Shown: positions 34 through 13,439 of the stretch, one piece after another
Layout: each line of letters opens with the position of its first letter
Position numbering within the stretch: position 1 is the stretch's first letter
Made by a program: the position numbers and the translations under genes
Source of the DNA: Gammaproteobacteria bacterium
GTDB taxonomy: Bacteria > Pseudomonadota > Gammaproteobacteria > DSM-16500
Direction of reading: 5' to 3'
DNA: 17,693 bases
Assembly (NCBI GenBank): GCA_013287235.1
Contig: JABDEF010000023.1
Location: 1-17,693 of the forward strand
Notes under the pieces: model-generated
Told to the model about the DNA's origin: nothing
What the model saw: the letters and a program-made list of their open reading frames with translations, nothing else
Database searches by the model: none

Positions 34-1389
34 ATGAAGCGCTATCTTATTGATAAATTGAAAGAATGGCTGACATCCTCGAGTCGCAAGCCTGCAGTAC
101 TTCGCGGTGCGCGGCAAGTGGGTAAAACTTGGATTGTAAGGGAACTTGCTAAACAAACTGGCAAGCAATTGATTGAGCTTAATTTTGAAAAAAAGCGTGC
201 TTTAGCCGTTCATTTTGAAAGTAATGAGCCATCGACGATTTTATTAAATCTTCAAAGCGCGTTGAATCAATCTATTAATCCACGAGAATCTATTTTGTTT
301 TTAGATGAAATTCAGGCCGCACCAGATTTGTTTGCAAAGTTGCGCTGGTTTTATGAAGATATGCCTGAGCTTGCTGTGATTGCGACGGGATCATTGCTGG
401 AGTTTGTATTAGAAAAACATTCCTTTAGCATGCCTGTTGGCCGCATCCAGTATTTTTTTATTGAACCATTAGGATTCGAAGAGTTTTTATTAGCAAAAAA
501 TGAAACGCATTTATTATCTGCTATAGAACAAGTTTCTATTGATAAATCACTTAATACATCATTGCATGACAAAGCAAATCAATTATTTAAAGAATATGTT
601 ACTGTCGGCGGAATGCCTGAAGCTGTTTCTACCTGGATTAAAACATCTTCGTTAGAAGCACTTTCTGAAATGCATAATAATCTAATGAATACTTACCAAG
701 ATGATTTTTCTAAATATGCGGGAAAATTATCAATTCATTATTTAGATGACGTATTGCATGCCGTTCCAAAATTATTAACCAAAAAATTTATTTACAGTCA
801 CGTAGATCCAACTGCACGATACGAAAGCATAAAACAAGCATTGAATTTGTTATCAAAAGCATGCTTATGTCATAAGGTGCAAAGTATCAGCGCAAATGGT
901 ATTCCACTGGGTGCTGAAGTGAATGCAAAAATTTTTAAGATTATTTTTATCGATATCGGCTTGGTATCAACAATGCTGGGTTTGAAATTGCATCAATTTA
1001 ACAAAATTGAGGATATTTTAGTGATAAATAAAGGAGCATTGGCGGAACAAGTCGTAGGACAGTTGTTACGATTACTATCACCATTTTATATTGAGCCCGC
1101 ATTACATTATTGGAGTCGTGAATCAGCAAGCTCGAGTGCTGAAGTTGATTATATCATTCAAGACAATCAACGCTTAATTCCCATTGAAGTGAAGGCGGGT
1201 TCTGAAGGTAAACTAAGATCGCTGCATCAATTTATGAGTGAAAAACCATGGAAACTTGCTGTGCGTTTTTATGCAGGACCTGTTCAACGTGACCATATCA
1301 AATCAAAAACCACAACAGGTAATTTGAATGATTATGAATTAATTTCATTACCATTTTATTTGCTGGGTCAATTATATAGATTGATATAG
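34..1389 (+). CDS. AAA ATPase with C-terminal DUF4143 (PD-(D/E)XK-like) domain
   Basis: This 451-aa protein has the layout of the AAA_14/DUF4143 family. A Walker A motif (GARQVGKT, residues 25-32) is followed by a Walker B motif (ILFLDE, 87-92) and a sensor-like ATGS (117-120). The C-terminal half carries a nuclease-fold signature: E370-V-D372, then I-E385-V-K387, the spacing of a PD-(D/E)XK core. These proteins are common in bacteria and archaea, often as isolated genes in variable regions, and their role is not established; DNA binding or a defence/selfish function has been suggested by others. The gene is complete, starts with ATG, is alone on the plus strand and converges on the AbiEii toxin gene. 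Its short upstream region (1-33) shows no clear promoter. The family call is secure; the function is unknown. Confidence 0.85.
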   Translation: MKRYLIDKLKEWLTSSSRKPAVLRGARQVGKTWIVRELAKQTGKQLIELNFEKKRALAVHFESNEPSTILLNLQSALNQSINPRESILFLDEIQAAPDLFAKLRWFYEDMPELAVIATGSLLEFVLEKHSFSMPVGRIQYFFIEPLGFEEFLLAKNETHLLSAIEQVSIDKSLNTSLHDKANQLFKEYVTVGGMPEAVSTWIKTSSLEALSEMHNNLMNTYQDDFSKYAGKLSIHYLDDVLHAVPKLLTKKFIYSHVDPTARYESIKQALNLLSKACLCHKVQSISANGIPLGAEVNAKIFKIIFIDIGLVSTMLGLKLHQFNKIEDILVINKGALAEQVVGQLLRLLSPFYIEPALHYWSRESASSSAEVDYIIQDNQRLIPIEVKAGSEGKLRSLHQFMSEKPWKLAVRFYAGPVQRDHIKSKTTTGNLNDYELISLPFYLLGQLYRLI

Positions 1390-1467
1390 GCGAAGCAAAA
1401 AAGCCTATGTTTGGTAATGTGGATCCCATGCCCCGCGCAGCCTTCTCCCTTGTTAAAATAAGTCTGC

Positions 1468-1494
1468 AAATTTAAATAATATTTTGTAATATAT
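1468..1494. repeat. 27-bp direct repeat, left copy
   Basis: This 27-bp AT-rich sequence (starts AAATTTAAATAAT, ends GTAATATAT) is identical to 4201-4227 in the same orientation. The identity stops abruptly on both sides. This copy contains the last codons and stop of the AbiEii toxin gene plus a few bases downstream. It may be one end of an inserted segment or the scar of a partial duplication. Confidence 0.85.
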
Positions 1495-2278
1495 CATGAA
1501 TTTCTTTAATGACCATTTTAATGTCTGGTAACTCAGCAACTTGTTTTCGCAGTCTATCATTCCATTTAATTTTCAAGGATGGTTTATTTAAATGTGTCAT
1601 TAATGTACTTAGCGTTGGATAATAGCCATACTTATCATAAAATGCATTTTTCACTTCTTTAATATTAAAATTAAATTTATTTGATCGTTTCAATAAAAAC
1701 CAAATATCAAAAATATCTCTTGGCTCATTGCGTGTTGAGTCAATCAGAAGACCTAATTTATTACCTAGAATGGTATTCAATGTCATTACAGAAAGTACGG
1801 TTTCGGGTTTTTTCAAATCACTATAGGATTCAAGTAATTTACTGGGCTTTGTTTTTCCAAAAAGATCCATGTTCATAGTTAAATCTATGCGCACCTCCTT
1901 AGGAATAGCAGAGATTTCTTCATAGCCTGTGTATTGAATGAATAATTGCAAACGATTTTTGTCATATTTAATAGTATCATTTTTTATTTCTAATACTAGA
2001 TTAGTTTTATCTTTTGCATAATTGAGTATTTGTAATTCTTTGAATAAATATTCATGTGTATACAATTGAGAACTTAATAAGTCAATATCTTCTGAAAAAC
2101 GATGATCGTCAAAATAAATTTTTTTAATTGCAGTGCCGCCATAAAAAATAAAATTATTTTTAAGTTTACTTTGTGCAAGACAAACTAATATCCAGCTAAT
2201 AACATAATCTTTTTCAATAGTTTCGGCTGGTACTTTATATTTTTTCGCTGCCGCATTAATTTCTGCTAATGGTATCAT
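1472..2278 (-). CDS. AbiEii/AbiGii-type nucleotidyltransferase toxin
   Basis: This is the toxin half of an AbiE (type IV) toxin-antitoxin pair; the family has a nucleotidyltransferase fold. The motifs are visible (numbering from the longest frame, which adds 18 N-terminal residues): GGTAIKKIY at 65-73, RFSEDIDL at 78-85 with the two metal-binding Asp, RIDL near 148-151, then a conserved Lys-containing helix and RDIFDIW at 205-211. I chose ATG at 2278 because it overlaps the antitoxin stop as ATGA, the usual arrangement for translational coupling; the open frame extends upstream to 2332, but that would be a 58-bp overlap. Established work on this family shows bacteriostatic toxins that modify RNA, some of them tRNA, and protect against phage. 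The 3' end coincides with a 27-bp direct repeat. The family is clear; the substrate here is unknown. Confidence 0.88.
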   Translation of the reverse strand: MIPLAEINAAAKKYKVPAETIEKDYVISWILVCLAQSKLKNNFIFYGGTAIKKIYFDDHRFSEDIDLLSSQLYTHEYLFKELQILNYAKDKTNLVLEIKNDTIKYDKNRLQLFIQYTGYEEISAIPKEVRIDLTMNMDLFGKTKPSKLLESYSDLKKPETVLSVMTLNTILGNKLGLLIDSTRNEPRDIFDIWFLLKRSNKFNFNIKEVKNAFYDKYGYYPTLSTLMTHLNKPSLKIKWNDRLRKQVAELPDIKMVIKEIHDILQNII

Positions 2279-3102
2279 TCCCAAACGCTCGCTTTTAATT
2301 CTTGAGGATTTATATTTAATCTTATTCGCCAACGCTTCAGATATTTTCCTGTTTTTGGTTCGCTTGGATCAAGTAATATATAACCGTTTGCTGAAGCAAT
2401 TATTTTTTGAATAAAATTAATGTGTTCAGATCCAATGTTTAATAATTCTAAAATATAACCTAACCGTTTTATGGCAGCTATTGTTTTATATTTTTTAATA
2501 TAATGCCTTAGTTTATCCCAATTAACTTCATTTATTTTGGTCCAGATGCCTTTTGTCACTTCTTTAATGCCACCACATAAATCAGGTCTTTCTAAGCCAT
2601 CTAAAATAGTACGTTCAAGGTCACTTACCATGACTTTTTCATGTTTACTTATCCAAAGATCAATAGCACCCCAAAAATGTTTTGGTTTTGCATAAATAAA
2701 ATGATACTGGATATTATAAAATTTTCGATTACGTTGGCGGTTAGTTAAGGTAATATAAATATCCAACAGTGGATGAGTACTCATTCCGTGCATGCGCATA
2801 GCACTGAAATGAGAAATAAAGTATGCATGTGGTTTTGCTAATTCTCTGGCGATAACGGGCCAGTTACTCAACTGAACATTTTCTTGTCCCATCTGGAGAA
2901 TGAGATAAGATCCTGATTTTATTCTTGCTAAAACACCCCTATTTACTAAATTTTTTAAAAAAGAACTCGTCTTGCTTTTATTTTGCTTATAAACAATGGC
3001 CGCTTCTTCGAGAGAAAATATAGATTTTCCTTCCTGCAGAAATTCATTAATGAATTTAGCTGCAATAGGTCCAAGGGTTCGGGTTTCAAATTTAATTGTC
3101 AT
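2275..3102 (-). CDS. AbiEi-type antitoxin / transcriptional autoregulator
   Basis: This protein (275 aa from the ATG) lies directly upstream of, and coupled to, the AbiEii toxin. Its N-terminal 70 residues look like a winged helix-turn-helix (LEEAAIVYKQNKSKTSSFLKNL, then a basic wing NRGVLARIKSG). The rest resembles the AbiEi antitoxin C-terminal domain, with the typical HAYFISHFSAMRMHG and VSDLERTILDGLERP stretches. AbiEi proteins neutralise the toxin without forming a stable complex and repress their own operon by binding inverted repeats. The frame opens at a GTG at 3120, but I prefer ATG at 3102, because a near-consensus promoter places its -10 box at 3109-3114, inside the longer reading frame. 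That makes the mRNA probably leaderless, and no ribosome-binding site is seen. Confidence 0.85.
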   Translation of the reverse strand: MTIKFETRTLGPIAAKFINEFLQEGKSIFSLEEAAIVYKQNKSKTSSFLKNLVNRGVLARIKSGSYLILQMGQENVQLSNWPVIARELAKPHAYFISHFSAMRMHGMSTHPLLDIYITLTNRQRNRKFYNIQYHFIYAKPKHFWGAIDLWISKHEKVMVSDLERTILDGLERPDLCGGIKEVTKGIWTKINEVNWDKLRHYIKKYKTIAAIKRLGYILELLNIGSEHINFIQKIIASANGYILLDPSEPKTGKYLKRWRIRLNINPQELKASVWE

Positions 3103-3108
3103 ATTTAT

Positions 3109-3136
3109 ATTATATGTCACATAAAAGTTTTTTCAA
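3109..3136 (-). promoter_or_regulatory. Promoter of the AbiE operon
   Basis: On the minus strand, TTGAAA (3136-3131) and TATAAT (3114-3109) are separated by 16 bp. Transcription should begin about 7 nt after the -10, at or next to the A of the antitoxin ATG (3102), giving a leaderless message. Confidence 0.65.
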
Positions 3137-3155
3137 GTCTTATTTGTTACATATA
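3111..3155. promoter_or_regulatory. Inverted repeat, candidate AbiEi operator
   Basis: Two arms of the form TATATGTNACA lie in opposite orientation, at 3111-3121 (TATATGTCACA) and at 3155-3145 on the other strand (TATATGTAACA). They are 23 bp apart. One overlaps the -10 box and the other lies just upstream of the -35 box. AbiEi antitoxins are known to bind paired inverted repeats at their own promoter, so this is the obvious operator. The binding itself is inferred. Confidence 0.6.
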
Positions 3156-3165
3156 GTATAATTAT

Positions 3166-3185
3166 GCCATGCGTTTTTGCATGGC
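3166..3185. repeat. Short perfect hairpin
   Basis: GCCATGC and GCATGGC pair perfectly around a six-base loop (GTTTTT). It sits in the 240-bp gap between the two toxin-antitoxin modules. It is followed on + by a C/T-rich stretch rather than a T-run, so its role as a terminator is uncertain. Apart from a second imperfect hairpin around 3194-3220, the rest of this gap (to 3360) shows nothing I can name. Confidence 0.4.
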
Positions 3186-3360
3186 CCCTCCTTTTCTCTT
3201 GTTAATTTTACAAGGGAGAATAGGTAGGTTACTTCTTTCTATTTCGTGTTGGATAATTTTCTTTTTTGGGTGGTTTCGGTTGAGCTTGTTCTTTTGCCAC
3301 AGTTGTTAGGGATGAGCAAGTTTTCGAAATCGCAGAAGGGGACCGCAAATACTTAAGTAT

Positions 3361-3738
3361 TCACCAAATAACTTTATTGTAAAATTTTTCTATTTTTTTA
3401 TCGGTCGTCACAATCGAAAGCTCATGTTTGATCGCAAATGCCGTAATTATTCTATCGGCAGGGTCTTTATTGTCATCCCACATTAATTCAACAGAATCAA
3501 GCCATTCATTCACGCCAATATCAATGATATGAATGTTTTGAATTTCTTGCATTTTTTGAAATAATGCGCGCGTTGAAATGCTCATCTCTAATTTGCCCAA
3601 TTTAACTTTACAGGCAATTTCAGCAAATGAAATTGAGATAATATATGCGCCTTTATCCATGAGTTTTGCAACTTTTGTTGAAAACGAGGGGTTGGGTTTT
3701 AATATTTCAATAATGGCGCAGGTGTCTAAAATTACCAT
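3361..3738 (-). CDS. vapC: PIN-domain ribonuclease toxin (VapC-like)
   Basis: This 125-aa protein has the length and acidic residue pattern of VapC toxins: D5 in the opening LDTCAII, E40 after SISFAE, D95 in DPADRIITAFA, and D113 in IVTTDKKI. These four residues form the metal-dependent RNase site of PIN domains. VapC toxins cleave tRNA or rRNA, and the target cannot be read from the sequence. The ATG lies 7 nt inside the end of the upstream antitoxin gene, so the two are translationally coupled. The protein is intact with no missing catalytic residue. It is more like the PIN toxins paired with Phd-type antitoxins than the FitB/VapC type paired with AbrB-fold antitoxins. Confidence 0.88.
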   Translation of the reverse strand: MVILDTCAIIEILKPNPSFSTKVAKLMDKGAYIISISFAEIACKVKLGKLEMSISTRALFQKMQEIQNIHIIDIGVNEWLDSVELMWDDNKDPADRIITAFAIKHELSIVTTDKKIEKFYNKVIW

Positions 3739-3962
3739 TTGTCGAATCCTGGTAAAATAGGTTCGTTTAAATCACCATGTACTTTAACCGTGACAGAGCC
3801 TCTCAAATCTTTGATTGTTTTAGATTTGATTTTGGTTAACACGAGTGCAGGATGATTTTGATGTGTAATCATCAATGGTGCACCATGTATTTCAACCCAT
3901 TGAAGATATTTGCTTGTATGTTGTATAAATTCGCGTTTTCCAATTTTTTTGGGAAGGTGCAT
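3732..3962 (-). CDS. Phd/YefM-type antitoxin paired with the PIN toxin
   Basis: This small protein (76 aa from the ATG) contains the Phd-fold pattern KREFIQHTSKYLQWVEIHG followed by APLMITHQNHPALVL. That is the DNA-binding and dimerisation half of prevent-host-death antitoxins. The C-terminal tail (LRGSVTVKVHGDLNEPILPGF) would be the toxin-wrapping segment. The frame opens at a GTG at 3974, but those bases belong to the ribosome-binding site (GTGAGG, six bases before the ATG), so ATG at 3962 is the likely start. The stop overlaps the toxin start by 7 nt. Autoregulation through the palindrome at 3979-3999 is expected. Confidence 0.82.
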   Translation of the reverse strand: MHLPKKIGKREFIQHTSKYLQWVEIHGAPLMITHQNHPALVLTKIKSKTIKDLRGSVTVKVHGDLNEPILPGFDKW

Positions 3963-3978
3963 GTTTTGCCTCACTTAT

Positions 3979-4318: not shown

Positions 4319-4762
4319 TCAATCGGTTCCATCTGACGTAATCACATCGGCTGGACGTATTATCTTTTTATTCTGTTGATAGCCTTTCCGGCAAATTTCA
4401 ATAATGGTACCTGCGAGTACTTTTTCTTGTGTTTTCCGCGTTTCAAGAACTCTTACTTTGCCAAGTTCAATTTGATTATTCATGAATTTGATTTCTTCTA
4501 CCTGCCAACGACGAAGGAGATTAACAAGTCTTTTCTCAATTTTTTTAATGATGATCAGCGCATTTGATTCATCATTCATATTTGATATTGACACGGTGAT
4601 CATATCAAGAATATCAATAATCATTAGAGCAGCATCATTGATGCTGCGTTCACTTTCATTTTCAGTATTTTTATACTGTTCTTGTAATTGTACTTGCGCT
4701 TGTTGAAGCTTACTAATACGTATTTTGATTTGCTCAAATAAATCAGTTTTATCCATGCTCAT
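4319..4762 (-). CDS. Divergent GrpE-like nucleotide exchange factor
   Basis: At first sight this 147-aa protein is anonymous, but its C-terminal half follows GrpE. LVNLLRRWQVEEI (79-91) matches the segment ending helix 4 (in E. coli, LDVVRKFGVEVI). AGTIIEICRKGYQQNKKIIRP (117-137) matches the beta-domain signature ([20 protein letters not shown]). The N-terminus (about 7-34) is a heptad-rich helix, as in the long GrpE dimer stalk, though shorter: E. coli GrpE is about 197 aa. GrpE opens the nucleotide cleft of Hsp70 to release ADP. The gene ends an operon begun by an Hsp70, which strongly supports the call. It overlaps the upstream gene by 14 nt, with a second in-frame ATG at 4756. The alignment was made by eye, so some doubt remains. 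Confidence 0.65.
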   Translation of the reverse strand: MSMDKTDLFEQIKIRISKLQQAQVQLQEQYKNTENESERSINDAALMIIDILDMITVSISNMNDESNALIIIKKIEKRLVNLLRRWQVEEIKFMNNQIELGKVRVLETRKTQEKVLAGTIIEICRKGYQQNKKIIRPADVITSDGTD

Positions 4763-6761
4763 TTAAAAAGTCTTGTCTTAAACAAATATTATGTAACCTA
4801 TCCTCTGATGATGGTAATGAAGTGAAATCTTCTTCATCATCCATCTGAGATAGGTAGCGTAAAAAATGATGTAAAAATCGTCTCGGTGGATCAAACAATT
4901 CAGATTGTGCTTGTCTGAAAGTAGCCATTTCATTGGGTGAATCTTTTATTAGCTGCATGATTTTTTGCATGATAGCGGCTTTATTGTCAGTTAAGGCAAC
5001 GCTTAGCGTTTGAAAAGGATCGCTTGTTGATAACACGCTAGAAAAAATTTGCTCTTCAGTCGAGTTGAATTTTTCATTTACATATTTATCTAAATCGGAA
5101 AGACAAACCGTATTCAAGGCAAATGTTTGGGCGATGCGAGGCATATCATGCAGATAGAACCTATATATACAATCAGGACAAATACACTCTGTCATGTATT
5201 CTTTTAACGGAAGAAATTTATTGAGTCGCTTATTTTTAAAGAGAGATTTCATGTGCAAGAGAGGCTTCAATGATAAATTGCCACGAAGTAGAGTGCAACT
5301 ATCTGCCATGAGTGTGAGTTGCTCACGTAAAGTGAGTTCATTTTTAATGTTGGTAATGATTTTTTTAGATTTTTTTTGATCCGCAATGTCAGATAAAAAT
5401 TGTGAGCATATAAGTTGGCGAACATACAATAGATGCGCTTTATTTTCCAAATCATTTTCTTTAATACGGCGAGCAAAGTCTTTTAATGGTTCTATACCTA
5501 AATTTTCGAGACTTTCAAGCTGCTTTTTTAATTCACCCAGGTATTTCGCGATGATAATTCTATTAAGAACAGGCTCTTCTAATAAAGAGCAAAAATTTTC
5601 TAGCGCGATCCAAAACGCATTTGAATCTGATGGCGCAATCGTTTGTGCGGTTTGTATCAAAACATTTTTGAATAAGTGATTCGCGCATGATACTATATTT
5701 CCAAAAGTTTTAGGCTCAAGATCTTCTTTAAATATTGTTTTTTTGCTGACCGTAGAGCGTAACTTGAGCGCCAGTTGCAGATAAGGATGGAAAGTATTTT
5801 TTTGAATTTTTGAAATAGCGGTAGTATTCATCCCTGTTTCACCATTGAGTGCCCAAAGTACAGCATAATAGGTATCTGGATGATACATTTCATAGAGTTC
5901 TTTATTTTCAGATTCAAGCCACGTTAAAAATGATTGACTCGTTTGTTTCTCGGCAGCATCAAAATGAATGAGATAACCAGGTGTTGGAATGAAGTCAAGA
6001 CGAATTCCTGAGGTTTTAACCGCTAATTCTAAGACGCATGTTAGAATGGTTGCTTCATAGTGTAGAACATTTGCAAATAATACTTTATCCCATGTACGGT
6101 TATTAGAAAAAAGGCACTTTATTTCAGAAGATAACCCACGGATGGATTTCGCAATATCTTGATGATATATATCGTTTCGTTGGATGAAACAAGCAGCGCC
6201 TGTTAGGATGTGACTGATAAACCCTGGAATATTTCCGAGTAATTTTTTTTCAGACTGAAAAAAAGCAAGCTTACTTAAATTTTCCACCAAACGACTAGAA
6301 AATGCATCTTCGGAAGTTTTCAAGATACGTTCTAATTTTTCGTAATGGCGTTGTTGCCATAGTGCATCAAAAAGATGATTTCTCAGATGATAATATATCT
6401 GGCTTTTGGGAAATAAGTTTTTTGCCGTTTGATAAAGTATATAAAGATTATCTTCTGATAAATAAGCCAAGGAGGATAGTAAACCTTCATTTTTAAAAAC
6501 ATAGGCAGCAATAGATGTACAATCTTCCTGAATTTTTGTATGACCCTTAGCAGCTAATGGCCAAAAGGCAATGAGTGCATCCATATATTTCTTTGTGCGC
6601 AGCAATGAATAGCCATATAAATACTGATCCTTACGCGTCAACTCTGGTTTTTCACGCAGTAAAGCGATGATTTCTTCGAAACGATTATTTTTAATATGAT
6701 CAATGGAAATTAAACTTGTTTTTTTTTGTAGTTTTGCTTTATTGAATTTTTTGTACTTCAC
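4749..6761 (-). CDS. 670-aa helical-repeat protein with degenerate J-like C-terminus, Hsp70-operon member
   Basis: I do not recognise a named family. The N-terminus (about 20-150) is alpha-helical with TPR/Sel1-like phrases (NRFEEIIALLREKPELTRKDQYLYGYS, RTKKYMDALIAFWPLAAKG, RHYEKLERILK). A long, probably helical middle follows, then a single CICPDC pair at 526-531. Residues 580-632 resemble the later part of a J domain: DPFQTLSVAL, an isoleucine/lysine helix, then FRQAQSELFDPPRRF, like the AYxxLxDPxxR helix. The HPD tripeptide needed to stimulate Hsp70 is absent there. The start is GTG at 6761 with AAAGGA upstream; it overlaps the zinc-ribbon gene by 23 nt and the GrpE-like gene by 14 nt. A client-binding or scaffolding co-chaperone role is inferred from context only. 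No signal peptide or TM segment is apparent. Confidence 0.6.
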   Translation of the reverse strand: MKYKKFNKAKLQKKTSLISIDHIKNNRFEEIIALLREKPELTRKDQYLYGYSLLRTKKYMDALIAFWPLAAKGHTKIQEDCTSIAAYVFKNEGLLSSLAYLSEDNLYILYQTAKNLFPKSQIYYHLRNHLFDALWQQRHYEKLERILKTSEDAFSSRLVENLSKLAFFQSEKKLLGNIPGFISHILTGAACFIQRNDIYHQDIAKSIRGLSSEIKCLFSNNRTWDKVLFANVLHYEATILTCVLELAVKTSGIRLDFIPTPGYLIHFDAAEKQTSQSFLTWLESENKELYEMYHPDTYYAVLWALNGETGMNTTAISKIQKNTFHPYLQLALKLRSTVSKKTIFKEDLEPKTFGNIVSCANHLFKNVLIQTAQTIAPSDSNAFWIALENFCSLLEEPVLNRIIIAKYLGELKKQLESLENLGIEPLKDFARRIKENDLENKAHLLYVRQLICSQFLSDIADQKKSKKIITNIKNELTLREQLTLMADSCTLLRGNLSLKPLLHMKSLFKNKRLNKFLPLKEYMTECICPDCIYRFYLHDMPRIAQTFALNTVCLSDLDKYVNEKFNSTEEQIFSSVLSTSDPFQTLSVALTDNKAAIMQKIMQLIKDSPNEMATFRQAQSELFDPPRRFLHHFLRYLSQMDDEEDFTSLPSSEDRLHNICLRQDFLNEHG

Positions 6762-7236
6762 TGTTTTGTCCTTTCAATGCTGCAGTGTTCGTCTCTAAGT
6801 TACGCACCTCTTTTTGCAAAACTTGATTTTCATGATGTAAATCTATTATTAACTCAAGTTCCTGTTTAATCGTGGTATTCATTTGCTGAAGTTGCTGAAA
6901 TCCTGTTTGAAACCATTGTTCTTGCGCAGATATCTGTTGAGATTCTCTGTTATCGATATAATTTAAAAATTGTATTCCAACATAAATACCAAAGACGGTA
7001 CAGGTAAGCAATGTTAAGCATACAATCGTTTGCATAACGACTAAGAAAGTAGTGGCTAACTGCATTTTTTTTGGATGATGAATATCCTGTTTTGAAGGAT
7101 TGATAGTTTTATTCATACGTGTTTCCTCGTGCATTGTTTGTAGAAGACGATGCACATGAAGATCTGAACCACATTGGACACAATACTCAATGTTCTTGTG
7201 CGGAGCATTATTTGTTTTGCAAGCTGGGCAAATCAA
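6739..7236 (-). CDS. Zinc-ribbon, single-TM, coiled-coil protein in Hsp70 operon
   Basis: This 165-aa protein has three parts. Residues 3-22 form a zinc ribbon (CPAC and CVQC, Cys 3, 6, 19 and 22). A hydrophobic segment at about 61-91 should be one transmembrane helix. From about 100 to 160 there is a Gln/Glu-rich, heptad-like coiled coil. Basic residues before the helix (HHPKK) suggest the ribbon is cytoplasmic and the coiled coil periplasmic. The start is TTG at 7236, which overlaps the Hsp70 stop (TTGA) and is preceded by AGGGA; no ATG would keep the ribbon. It could tether the chaperone to the inner membrane, but that is inference from its place between the Hsp70 and helical-repeat genes. 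No family name is certain. Confidence 0.65.
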   Translation of the reverse strand: MICPACKTNNAPHKNIEYCVQCGSDLHVHRLLQTMHEETRMNKTINPSKQDIHHPKKMQLATTFLVVMQTIVCLTLLTCTVFGIYVGIQFLNYIDNRESQQISAQEQWFQTGFQQLQQMNTTIKQELELIIDLHHENQVLQKEVRNLETNTAALKGQNSEVQKIQ

Positions 7237-9467
7237 AGGTTTACATCCCTATCAAAACGTCGCCTTGCTGTATTAGACCAGGATAATCTTGAGTGGATAA
7301 GATCGTGCAACATATCTTCGGCATTCTGTATTAATGCTTTATTTTTCTGTAAATACACAGTCACTAGAGTGCTTGCTTGGTTTCGAATGGATTTAGCTAA
7401 GTCAGGTATATTGGTTTGAATTATCTTTGCGATATGCTCAGCTTTGCCTAAGCTATAAGCGGTTGATAGATCACCACCACATTTTACGTTTTCATTGAGT
7501 AAGTTTTTTAGTTTTTCAGGGTCGTCGAGGTTTTCTAATGCATGTTTAAGCCCGCCTATCATAACATCCATGCGTGTTTTTTCTTTATCTGAAAGAATTT
7601 GTGCGGCGGCTTCCCGTACAGTGGATGCGAATTCAAGGACGCTAAGCGGAGGGGATTCTTGATTCTGAAGTGTTTTTAACGTGTTTATTTGGCGTTCAGC
7701 CTTTTGTTTTATATCGAGACGTGTTTCACCTGTCACTGGGTCGCTAGCAGATAGAATAGTTTTTACAACAATCTGGCTTAAGAGGAAAACATCTCTTTCA
7801 ATACCTGCGTTATGCGCATTTGAGATAATAGAAGAAATGGTGTTTTCTAGGTCGTTATAAAGTTTGGTCGCAAGTCCTCCGCGTGCAATCTCTGCTTCAA
7901 TCGATTGATTTTCATTTTGTAAAGACCAGGCTTTCATCGTGATAATATTATCTTCATCAACAGTAAAACGCAGCATGATTTCAGTGGGCTTAAGATCATC
8001 TTTTAACCCAGGTTGATTTTCTTCACGGTGAAACCATAATTCTCCTACAGTATCTAGCACACCTTCTACTTCATTAAACACGCGCAGCCTGGCCAGAAAC
8101 TGATCTACATGGGAGAAGGTCAATTTTTCTTCTACTTTAAAAGGAAGAGGGGTGTTTCTGGCAACTAAAAGATGTTTTTTCCCTCCAGCCAATTGCAGGT
8201 AGTAATCATGGGCGGTGGAATGCATCATCGCAAAAGCATTTTCATTTGTGATCGTGTCTTGGCTTGCCATTTTCGCAGCCATTAATGCGGCACCCTCTGC
8301 AATGGCAAACATCGGACGAGGATGTATCATCACTTTTTCTGAACCAAAGATATTTTTTAATTCATCTTGAATGGCAGGCACTAAAGAGGAACCTCCTACC
8401 ATTAATACGGTGTCAATCAGTGCTGGCTCAAAGCGAATTTCATATAATATTTGATGTGCTATCTGCGAAACACGCTGGACAATGGGTTTTAAAAGTTCAG
8501 AAAATTCTGGGCGTGTAATGGTAACGTCAATATCAATGAATGTATTATTTTCATCTTTTAATAGGCCAAACATATCAATATTGGCTTCTTCTACAGAACT
8601 TAATGCTATTTTTGCTGCTTCTGCTTTTTCTTTTATCTCCACAAGGAAGCGCGCTTTGTCCGCAGGGGAAAGCTGTTCAAGCATTTCAATAATGGATTTA
8701 CATCCCGTTTCTTTTTGCGCCCTTTGAAAGACATGATTAATGATTAACTGATCAATATCATCACCACCAAGCCACATATCTCCACCTTTGGTAATCTCCA
8801 TGAAGCTTCCACCTGCAAAACTTAAAATGGAAATATCAAAAGTTCCACCGCCTAGGTCAAATACCATGATGGTTTTAGATTCATTCTTATCTAATTCACC
8901 CAAACCAAAGGATAATGCGGCTGCGGTGGGTTCAGGAAGTAAGCGCAATAGTTTGATGCCTGCATAATCACATGCAGCGCGTGTCGCAAATTTTTGGCGA
9001 TCTGAAAAGTAAGCTGGAACAGTGACCACAGCCTGACCAATGTTTCCCTCGAGCTCTATTTCACCATCACGAATAAGTTTGCTTAAAATCATGCCTGAAA
9101 TCATTTCAGGCGTTTGCATTTTGTTCCCCAGTGGAATGCGAATAGATTCAGGTTCGGATGGATCGGTTGTGATTTGGTAAGTCACACGATGTTCCTTTAA
9201 GATATTTTGTACTTCTAGATCGTTAAAGTCGCGTCCCATCAAACGCTTAACGGAAGTGATGGTTTTTTCTGGGTATTGTTTTAAAATATTACGAGAATGA
9301 CGGCCGACCACTATTTCAAAAGAGGTGTTGTCAGGATTCGGTATTGCGGTTACGCATGAGGGTGTCAACTCTTCTTTTTCAGAATTGCGCAGAATAGATA
9401 CACCTATTTTTTTCACGCTGATAACAGAATTCGTTGTACCTAGATCAATGCCGACAGTAATTCTCAT
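7233..9467 (-). CDS. Divergent Hsp70/DnaK-family chaperone
   Basis: This is a complete 744-aa Hsp70. The ATPase domain is canonical: phosphate-1 IDLGTTNS (7-14), catalytic-type lysine in SVKRLMGR (72-79), VPAYFSDRQ (150-158), LPEPTAAA (177-184), phosphate-2 FDLGGGTFD (203-211) and adenosine motif GGSSLVPAIQ (358-367). The substrate half is unusual. The hydrophobic linker normally reading VLLLDVTPLSLG is replaced around 411-428 by FAMMHSTAHDYYLQLAGG; the beta domain (about 430-520) is poorly conserved, and a long helical tail ends without EEVD or a Gly-rich segment. It is longer than DnaK (about 638 aa). It is therefore not the housekeeping DnaK but a paralogue, first gene of a four-gene operon that includes a GrpE-like protein. 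ATG 9467 is preceded by AGGAT. Its clients are unknown. Confidence 0.88.
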   Translation of the reverse strand: MRITVGIDLGTTNSVISVKKIGVSILRNSEKEELTPSCVTAIPNPDNTSFEIVVGRHSRNILKQYPEKTITSVKRLMGRDFNDLEVQNILKEHRVTYQITTDPSEPESIRIPLGNKMQTPEMISGMILSKLIRDGEIELEGNIGQAVVTVPAYFSDRQKFATRAACDYAGIKLLRLLPEPTAAALSFGLGELDKNESKTIMVFDLGGGTFDISILSFAGGSFMEITKGGDMWLGGDDIDQLIINHVFQRAQKETGCKSIIEMLEQLSPADKARFLVEIKEKAEAAKIALSSVEEANIDMFGLLKDENNTFIDIDVTITRPEFSELLKPIVQRVSQIAHQILYEIRFEPALIDTVLMVGGSSLVPAIQDELKNIFGSEKVMIHPRPMFAIAEGAALMAAKMASQDTITNENAFAMMHSTAHDYYLQLAGGKKHLLVARNTPLPFKVEEKLTFSHVDQFLARLRVFNEVEGVLDTVGELWFHREENQPGLKDDLKPTEIMLRFTVDEDNIITMKAWSLQNENQSIEAEIARGGLATKLYNDLENTISSIISNAHNAGIERDVFLLSQIVVKTILSASDPVTGETRLDIKQKAERQINTLKTLQNQESPPLSVLEFASTVREAAAQILSDKEKTRMDVMIGGLKHALENLDDPEKLKNLLNENVKCGGDLSTAYSLGKAEHIAKIIQTNIPDLAKSIRNQASTLVTVYLQKNKALIQNAEDMLHDLIHSRLSWSNTARRRFDRDVNL

Positions 9468-9567: not shown

Positions 9568-10548
9568 TTATTTCAATAGGTCATGTAAAATACTGTTTAA
9601 ATATCGCATATTATTTTCTGTTATTTTGATTTTTCCACATTGCCTATCTTTTTGAAAAGTATCTAATAATCCTTGAATGACAAGAGGATCTTTTGTGATG
9701 ATCGATAATTCGCGATTTTTATTTAAAGAGGGTTTTGTAAAATTAATAGAACCCAAGAGCGCTTCTTTTTGATCGATGATAATGACTTTTGCATGGATTT
9801 GATAAGGATGTTCAAAACAAATATTGACGTTTGATTTTTTTAAAAAATCGTAGCGTTTTTGTTCCGAATATTTATCCACTAATAATTCAACCTTGACACC
9901 GCGGCGTGAAGCTTTGGCGAGTGCGCCTACGATTTGGTAATCACTCACATCTTGCGCATACATTTTAATACTAGATTTGGCAGCCTGAATGAAATGTAAA
10001 ATTTTTTCGCGGGATGTGTCAGGACTCCAAACAAGGTTGTGTTCGGTTACAGAAGTTTTTTGATGTTTAGCATCATTTTGTAAAACATTTTCGATTTCTG
10101 AAATCATGGCAGGATCTTCAATCCAAATCCCGAAATTTCTTTGATTTTGAAAAGAACTACGCGTGAGATTCAATGTCATGATGAGTGCTTTTTTGTGATC
10201 GAATATAAATGTTTTTTGATGTGTGAGCTGAAAATCTGGATTGGGTGACAGTAAATGTATATCTGCTTTTTTTAAGCGTTTTAATGCAAAAATATTTTCA
10301 TTGGCGTTTTTGTAGGGAAGAGGTTCAAGTAAAATATTTACGTTTTTACCGCTATTTTTTGCTTGAATCAGTGCATCGATAAACGTGGGATCCGTGAAGC
10401 CATACATCACAAGATCGATAGAATGTGCGTTATGGATTGCATTTAAAATGGGTGTGCGTCCTTCATCCGGTTCGATGAGAAGGGTGTCTGCAAAGGTAGT
10501 GAGCGTGAAAAGAAAGAATAATAAGAGTATGGTTGTAATTTTTTTCAT
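9568..10548 (-). CDS. Secreted phospholipase D-superfamily (HKD) protein
   Basis: This 326-aa protein has two HxK(x)4D motifs, H110-K112-D117 (HQKTFIFD) and H252-K254-D259 (HAKVIIID). Each is followed by the typical NxTxxSxxxNRE/NF stretch, so both half-sites of a PLD active site are present. The N-terminus (MKKITTILLLFFLFTLTTFA, cleavage after residue 20) is a clear Sec signal peptide, which places the enzyme in the periplasm or outside the cell. Members of this group hydrolyse or transfer phosphodiester bonds in phospholipids or nucleic acids; the substrate cannot be told here. The short size resembles secreted Nuc/PLD-like enzymes more than cardiolipin synthases, which carry N-terminal membrane helices. 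It precedes the Hsp70 operon with a 100-bp gap that may contain a separate promoter. Confidence 0.85.
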   Translation of the reverse strand: MKKITTILLLFFLFTLTTFADTLLIEPDEGRTPILNAIHNAHSIDLVMYGFTDPTFIDALIQAKNSGKNVNILLEPLPYKNANENIFALKRLKKADIHLLSPNPDFQLTHQKTFIFDHKKALIMTLNLTRSSFQNQRNFGIWIEDPAMISEIENVLQNDAKHQKTSVTEHNLVWSPDTSREKILHFIQAAKSSIKMYAQDVSDYQIVGALAKASRRGVKVELLVDKYSEQKRYDFLKKSNVNICFEHPYQIHAKVIIIDQKEALLGSINFTKPSLNKNRELSIITKDPLVIQGLLDTFQKDRQCGKIKITENNMRYLNSILHDLLK

Positions 10549-13223: not shown

Positions 13224-13342
13224 GGAGGCAGCCAGTACACCAGCCTGACTTCGGCGCCCGCATCTGCTACTACCGTTGCTTCCTTCCGGACCTGGCGGGG
13301 TTCATAACATAGCGTCGCGAAGAGACCAGTGACTGACCACCA
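13224..13342 (-). ncRNA. ffs: Signal recognition particle RNA (4.5S, small bacterial type)
   Basis: The minus strand contains the universally conserved apical core GTCCGGAAGGAAGCA (13291-13277), which binds Ffh. The flanking arms close a long hairpin: GGTGGTCAGT (13341-13332) pairs with ACTGGCTGCC (13236-13227). The length, about 115 nt, matches E. coli 4.5S RNA. The RNA lies 5 bp after the encoded CCA of tRNA-Ser and ends 16 bp before the dnaX start, so one primary transcript may carry all three. The exact ends are estimated from base pairing. Confidence 0.95.
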
Positions 13343-13347
13343 TTGCT

Positions 13348-13439
13348 TGGCGGAGAGAGAGGGATTCGAACCCTCGGTACGCCGTTAAGCGTACACACAC
13401 TTTCCAGGCGTGCTCCTTAAACCACTCGGACATCTCTCC
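13348..13439 (-). tRNA. tRNA-Ser (anticodon GGA)
   Basis: This is a complete 92-nt class II tRNA. The acceptor stem GGAGAGA pairs with TCTCTCC, followed by discriminator G and an encoded CCA (13350-13348). The anticodon loop CTGGAAA gives anticodon GGA (13405-13403), reading UCC/UCU serine codons. The long variable arm and GGTTCGAATCC T-loop are those of serine tRNAs. It lies between dapE and the SRP RNA. Weak promoter-like boxes lie at the end of dapE. Confidence 0.97.

Follow-up and report, generated by a model that had tools for sequence, protein, structure and literature searches.

Can a bacterium keep, beside its housekeeping DnaK-DnaJ-GrpE, a second Hsp70 machine that shares no parts with it? 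The question is raised by four genes on the minus strand (positions 4319-9467) of a 17,693-nucleotide (nt) stretch from a Gammaproteobacteria bacterium (contig JABDEF010000023.1 of assembly GCA_013287235.1), which, at its full length, is called the window below. An initial annotation read these genes as a self-contained, possibly membrane-tethered Hsp70 chaperone operon. This reading is borne out in that the four genes form a unit, that the unit recurs in a second genome and that one product belongs to the GrpE family; the J-like end ascribed to another product is moderately supported. Judging by the sequences, we put at roughly 0.55 the probability that the operon encodes an insulated, accessory Hsp70 machine, served by an exchange factor of its own and by a J-like partner lacking the HPD motif, and possibly anchored in the membrane; we infer the interactions of its parts, the stimulation of its ATPase, its clients and its tethering. 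The features concerned are the following (aa, amino acids).

7233-9467, minus strand: Hsp70 gene, 744 aa, ATG start; PF00012 match at 1.4e-95.
8220..8234, minus strand: interdomain linker F-A-M-M-H of the Hsp70, counterpart of V-L-L-L-D393 in DnaK.
7236..7259, minus strand: C-terminal tail RFDRDVNL of the Hsp70; RFDRDV plus two residues is found in 20 of 23 family rows.
6739-7236, minus strand: gene for a zinc-ribbon, single-transmembrane (TM), coiled-coil-like protein, 165 aa, TTG start.
4749-6761, minus strand: gene for a 670-aa all-helical protein (ORF3), GTG start, outside known families.
4851..5021, minus strand: J-like domain without HPD, residues 581-637 of the 670-aa protein, proposed from an hhalign profile match and an AlphaFold2 (AF2) model.
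4758..4790, minus strand: conserved C-terminal tail of the 670-aa protein, approximately IP[FL]RxE[FL]LNA, from column conservation.
4319-4762, minus strand: GrpE-family protein gene, 147 aa, ATG start; PF01025 match.

Successive open reading frames (ORFs) overlap by 4, 23 and 14 nt, as the ORF list confirms. All four genes are present in identical order in an independent contig, VFKI01000122.1 (locus L001), of the Gammaproteobacteria metagenome-assembled genome Bin_66_13 (genome G001) and, therefore, the arrangement is more than chance. In L001, the Hsp70 occupies 468-2675, the zinc-ribbon protein 2672-3250 and the GrpE-like protein 5290-5718, while the 670-aa homologue runs to 5303; taking the latter to start at the ATG at 3231, where the tblastn match begins, gives overlaps of 4, 20 and 14 nt, but this start is our choice, and the longest ORF extends upstream to 3117. 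Identity between window and L001 is 59% for the Hsp70, 29% for the 670-aa protein and 47% for the GrpE-like protein. By contrast, the GTG and TTG starts, taken by the initial annotation as a sign of translational coupling, are not conserved, as the L001 counterparts begin with ATG. Scans for sigma-70 promoters (29 found, 28.0 expected) and terminators (7 found, 6.5 expected) gave results at chance level.

The first gene encodes a member of the Hsp70 superfamily, its PF00012 score of 321.2 bits comparing with a gathering score of 20.6. Three prokaryotic Hsp70 types are recognised in a review (PMC8215388), where HscA and HscC are argued to need no exchange factor, and the operon protein does not fit DnaK, HscA or HscC by sequence. 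For instance, it scores 293.5 bits with the NCBIfam DnaK model TIGR02350 and 284.4 bits with the HscA model TIGR01991, below the respective cut-offs of 822.55 and 708.55, and it shares 26.5% identity with E. coli DnaK across 614 columns. A 27-row tree separates its family from the DnaKs with a support of 100/100, although the branching order is unsure because the branches of HscA and HscC are long. According to the same review, HscC lacks residues 76-101 of the nucleotide-binding domain, carries an insertion in L1,2 and is considered to work without GrpE, whereas HscA has lost the GrpE-signature loop. In the window and L001 proteins, neither the deletion nor the insertion is present (both are visible in E. 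coli HscC in the same alignment), the loop (290-295) has a length like that of DnaK, and a GrpE is encoded nearby.

The catalytic residues D8, T11, K70, P143, E171, T199 and D201 are retained in all 20 members of the Hsp70 family that were tabulated (the short P0021, P0031 and P0038 were excluded, and the counts did not change under two further aligner settings). From these residues, the operon Hsp70 would be an active allosteric ATPase. The picture is different where a J domain docks. According to the review (PMC8215388), the J domain contacts DnaK by D35 (with R167 and Q378), P34 (with P419) and H33 (with L391), its basic residues pairing with E206, D211, E217 and D477; R167 also pairs with D393, according to a further source (PMC7289447). 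In the operon family, R167 and P419 are kept in 20/20, but D393H, Q378M, E217M, D326E and L392M are replacements found in every member, N170 has become P (18) or S (2), L391 is M in 16, I in 3 and L in 1, and E206, D211 and D477 are lost as well; R151 is K. The linker reads FxMMH instead of VLLLD, with the histidine at 393 in all 20 members. Of the two salt bridges named in the review (PMC8215388), K55-E267 has K55 changed to R and E267 kept, and R56-E264 has lost R56.

E. coli HscA and HscC retain N170, E217, D326, Q378, L391 and D393; the alignment with them and the tree used 13 of the 18 remaining Hsp70 protein rows. Of the 111 columns invariant in ten DnaKs, HscA and HscC, 30 held another residue or a gap in 15/15 family members, a column being counted only if the DnaK residue was absent from every member. 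N170, E217, V218, D326, Q378 and D393 are among them. The other 81 columns, including the ATP-binding core, have the DnaK residue in at least one member.

The 147-aa protein belongs to the GrpE family, as annotated (PF01025, 1.1e-11, 45.2 bits against a gathering cut-off of 25.8), and it may be the private nucleotide exchange factor of the operon Hsp70. Its 67 family rows, from which proteins shorter than 135 aa were excluded, have no glycine across the stretch aligned to E. coli GrpE 118-128, and four MAFFT settings place K at G122 and D at M189 in 67/67. According to a published account (PMC10825016), G122 of E. coli GrpE sits on the face contacting the DnaK hairpin 276-302, and G122D inactivates the protein.

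The 670-aa protein has no Pfam match. It is all-helical, with an N-terminal region of some 80-110 residues that may be TPR-like, and Foldseek returned no match below E 0.001 for the full model. Its end appears to resemble a J domain, with moderate support. In a single comparison against 45 J-domain rows, hhalign gave a score of 22.7, a probability of 35% and an E of 4e-4, and 0/300 column shuffles scored as high. The rows comprised 25 of 31 J-match loci (L010, L011 and L020-L048), which passed a text filter for HPD and a Y-LG pattern that six failed, and 20 divergent J domains added unfiltered, so a few are poor. AF2 predicts helices at 582-586, 594-607, 609-623 and 625-635, with a predicted local distance difference test (pLDDT) of 90-94 over residues 581-630 and of 88 over 631-640. 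On the other side, PF00226 (DnaJ) was not listed for any of the 17 family members at E <= 10, a search in which HMMER filters drop most weak matches, and HPD is found in none of them: the motif is SPx in 14, FPE in 2 and HPE in 1 (L001). S608-P609 stands at the place of H33-P34, that of R22 is M in 17/17, that of K26 is M or L, and that of K48 is A, S, T or V. P609 does not vary among the 17 members and, consequently, the would-be contact has an invariant proline on both sides, P609 in the J-like end and P419 in the Hsp70.

The remaining protein, compared in the window, L001 and a remnant in genome G086 (see below), has an N-terminal CxxC-12-CxxC, with only sub-threshold zinc-ribbon matches in Pfam. 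Its best 19-residue hydropathy is 2.25 at residues 64-82 (2.02 in the L001 counterpart), and a coiled-coil-like end after the TM stretch is common to all three. Basic residues precede the TM segment and, by the positive-inside rule, the ribbon is probably cytoplasmic.

Conserved tails are present in two of the products. That of the Hsp70 ends in L (18), I (1) or F (1) in the rows with the full motif, has one substitution each in P0034 and P0036 and is absent in P0038; a search of 36 genomes from the order of G001 for its DNA pattern gave a single match, in the G001 Hsp70. The tail of the 670-aa protein has a mean column conservation of 0.71 and follows a variable linker at 0.40. Both are probable docking peptides for partners. 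A comparable case may be AtcJ-AtcC of Shewanella, in which a J protein is reported to bind an operon partner through a short C-terminal extension, although AtcJ has a functional J domain and works with the ordinary DnaK system. A similarity between the two operon tails was considered and is not claimed.

Taken together, these features suggest a machine in which the 670-aa protein would recruit clients through a helical solenoid ending in the J-like domain. This end would dock on the rewritten, more hydrophobic surface of the Hsp70 instead of relying on HPD and the customary charge pairs, the GrpE-like protein would exchange the nucleotide, the tails would hold partners, and the TM helix of the zinc-ribbon protein would place the whole at the inner membrane. 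As the J-protein sites and probably the exchange-factor sites are altered, the machine probably shares no parts with the housekeeping DnaK-DnaJ-GrpE, alongside which it would run; in G001, the canonical grpE-dnaK-dnaJ is present on another contig.

Several observations weigh against such a machine. Among the systems cited in the review (PMC8215388), none retains Hsp70 stimulation once HPD is changed, and a machine stimulated in the absence of HPD would thus have no precedent. The J-like match is itself modest, at a probability of 35% and with the nearest shuffle at 21.5 against 22.7. Moreover, the segment folded alone from a single sequence gave a poor model (pLDDT 64.5) with no Foldseek match, a null result that says little. 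Not every basic contact is lost, as K51 of DnaJ corresponds to R in 17/17 members of the 670-aa family. In the Hsp70, V218E accompanies E217M in 20/20 and, thus, the acidic residue may have shifted by one rather than gone, and the allosteric surface is not wholly rewritten, since the clamp residue D481 is kept in 17/20 (N in 3) and K414 is conservatively R in 20/20. D211 and D477 are also absent from E. coli HscA and HscC, and E206 from HscA, so these three sites do not discriminate. Roughly half of the 30 changed columns are at position 396 or beyond, in the beta part of the substrate-binding domain and not in the J site; with P396A, G400Y, M404A, V436A and, in most members, A429S/T in this part, the client range probably differs. 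Finally, the change of G122 to K depends on the alignment, because phmmer, when it aligns the protein with E. coli GrpE as a pair, leaves a gap at 122.

A bolder form of the proposal would make this a fourth type of bacterial Hsp70 machine, orthogonal to DnaK and anchored in the membrane, in which an HPD-independent J domain triggers hydrolysis through a methionine-rich, proline-anchored contact (M217, M378 and M392 of the Hsp70; M598, M602 and P609 of ORF3) and the exchange-factor contact is changed (loss of GrpE G122). On sequence grounds, we regard this form as tentative and, taken as a whole, rather doubtful. More generally, a family that has replaced both HPD and the residues reading it is a natural experiment on Hsp70/co-chaperone specificity. 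It would also add to DnaK, HscA and HscC a specialised Hsp70 that retains a dedicated exchange factor, and the machine might be put to use as an orthogonal chaperone, provided that it is insulated.

Among the alternatives, the one that survives best takes the HPD-less J-like domain as a non-stimulating scaffold or brake, hydrolysis being driven by a conventional J protein encoded elsewhere or being intrinsically fast. The mitochondrial import motor, which combines an Hsp70, a GrpE-type factor and the HPD-less, J-like Pam16 at a membrane, would be the analogue; the likeness is one of composition, and the operon is without a Pam18-type J protein bearing HPD. This explanation fits the absence of HPD in all members and what the review reports of HPD mutants, ordinary J proteins are encoded in 35/35 genomes searched in the order (two in G001), and the R167 that they would contact is kept. 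However, an ordinary J protein should use the operon Hsp70 less easily with Q378, D393 and E217, sites that read HPD or are adjacent to it, rewritten in 20/20, and no conventional J gene was found among the window ORFs searched, so we hold this explanation to be unlikely, if still worth weighing.

Less credit is due to a plain duplication of DnaK, in which the copy has a GrpE linked to it and draws on the housekeeping co-chaperones. The precedent is in Myxococcus xanthus, where (PMC11019930) an accessory DnaK (MxDnaK2) lies in a bicistronic operon with its own GrpE-type factor (MXAN_6672), and MxDnaK1 binds both nucleotide exchange factors. That system has two genes, without a neighbouring J gene, and the linkers of MxDnaK1 and MxDnaK2 are almost identical (PMC11019930). 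The operon described here shares with DnaK-DnaJ-GrpE the Hsp70 ATPase core, the length of the signature loop and a GrpE-family partner, but the linker and J-docking residues differ in 20/20, the identity to E. coli DnaK is low, the tree sets the family apart (with the long branches of HscA and HscC in mind), HPD and the glycine at GrpE 122 are missing, and two extra conserved genes are present, one of them for a TM protein. We consider a mere duplication improbable.

The remaining types offer partial likenesses. According to the review (PMC8215388), HscC of E. coli is a specialised Hsp70 near J-type partner genes (djlB and djlC, for DjlB and DjlC) with a membrane link through a TM segment, and the J partners are DjlC for HscC and HscB for HscA. 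HscA-HscB resembles the operon in pairing a specialised bacterial Hsp70 with a J partner of its own, and no isc gene was found in the part of the window searched. Searches of an open-access library, which lacks most subscription papers, turned up no account of a system composed in this way.

That the four genes act with the neighbouring toxin-antitoxin and candidate defence genes in conflict or maintenance, and not in protein quality control, is very improbable, since, although Phd/PIN, AbiEi/AbiEii and AAA_14-DUF4143 genes follow the operon, its distribution is patchy and a decayed copy lies beside what we take to be a transposase-like ORF in G086, none of the four genes matches PADLOC and no relative of the 670-aa protein was found in the IMG/VR, phage or plasmid searches made.

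The window probably comes from a relative of G001: a search with DnaX matched 366 of 369 genomes of the class, the best scores being those of G031 (61% identity) and G002 (58%), both from the order of G001, followed by G101 and G001 (55% each), while some genomes with lower scores reach up to 65% in the conserved N-terminal part only. The system looks accessory and patchy in its distribution. Among genomes whose completeness may vary, the 670-aa family is found in 1/36 of the order of G001 and in 2/369 of the class, the second (G086) having a remnant only: two short ORFs in L012 1-5794 (G086:C43) that resemble the coiled coil of the zinc-ribbon protein and the N-terminus of the 670-aa protein. 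A further ORF of 789 aa, open at the contig end, is on the same contig. When GTDB genomes were scanned, the 670-aa protein had 0 loci with a single sequence and 1 with an alignment; these scans depend on a few exact peptide patterns, which divergent kin can escape. A model of the Hsp70 C-terminal part matched, in the 369 genomes of the class, in G001 and marginally in one other, G293 (22 bits, model positions 96-176), which was set aside. PF00012 matches occur in 34/36 genomes of the order, and only G001 has a second full-length Hsp70 besides DnaK; across the 36 genomes, possibly incomplete assemblies, no further full-length match was a candidate for HscA or HscC. The shorter matches have the size of what are presumably MreB or YegD.

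In protein databases, the relatives number at least 15 for the 670-aa protein, 21 for the Hsp70 tail and 70 for the GrpE-like protein (one being that of L001). The expectation that homologues would be neighbours holds where it could be judged, in G001 and on 15 of 88 contigs where at least two of the families occur together, all three on one of 304,133 nt; co-occurrence was judged from identical nucleotide size, not names, on the longest contig per protein cluster. An Hsp70 or GrpE partner is present on 9/15 ORF3 contigs. Two different GrpE-like proteins (P0048 and P0062) and an Hsp70 (P0029) have contigs of 43,488 nt, which may reflect a duplicated operon. One GrpE-like relative carries the source label 'Legionella sp.'.

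As regards the neighbourhood, which lies beyond the reach of the 5.8-kb L001 contig, positions 34-3974, downstream of the operon, contain the Phd/PIN pair (the Phd match being below cut-off), the AbiEi/AbiEii pair and, on the strand opposite to the operon, the AAA_14-DUF4143 gene (PADLOC PDC-S01, 2.4e-153). Directly upstream, 100 nt before the Hsp70 start, a PLD-family gene (9568-10548, minus strand) encodes a protein with a hydrophobic N-terminus, whose best NCBIfam match, NucT, is below cut-off. Further away, a small signal recognition particle RNA and a tRNA-Ser(gga) lie within 13235-13439, between two ORFs that we take to be dnaX and dapE.

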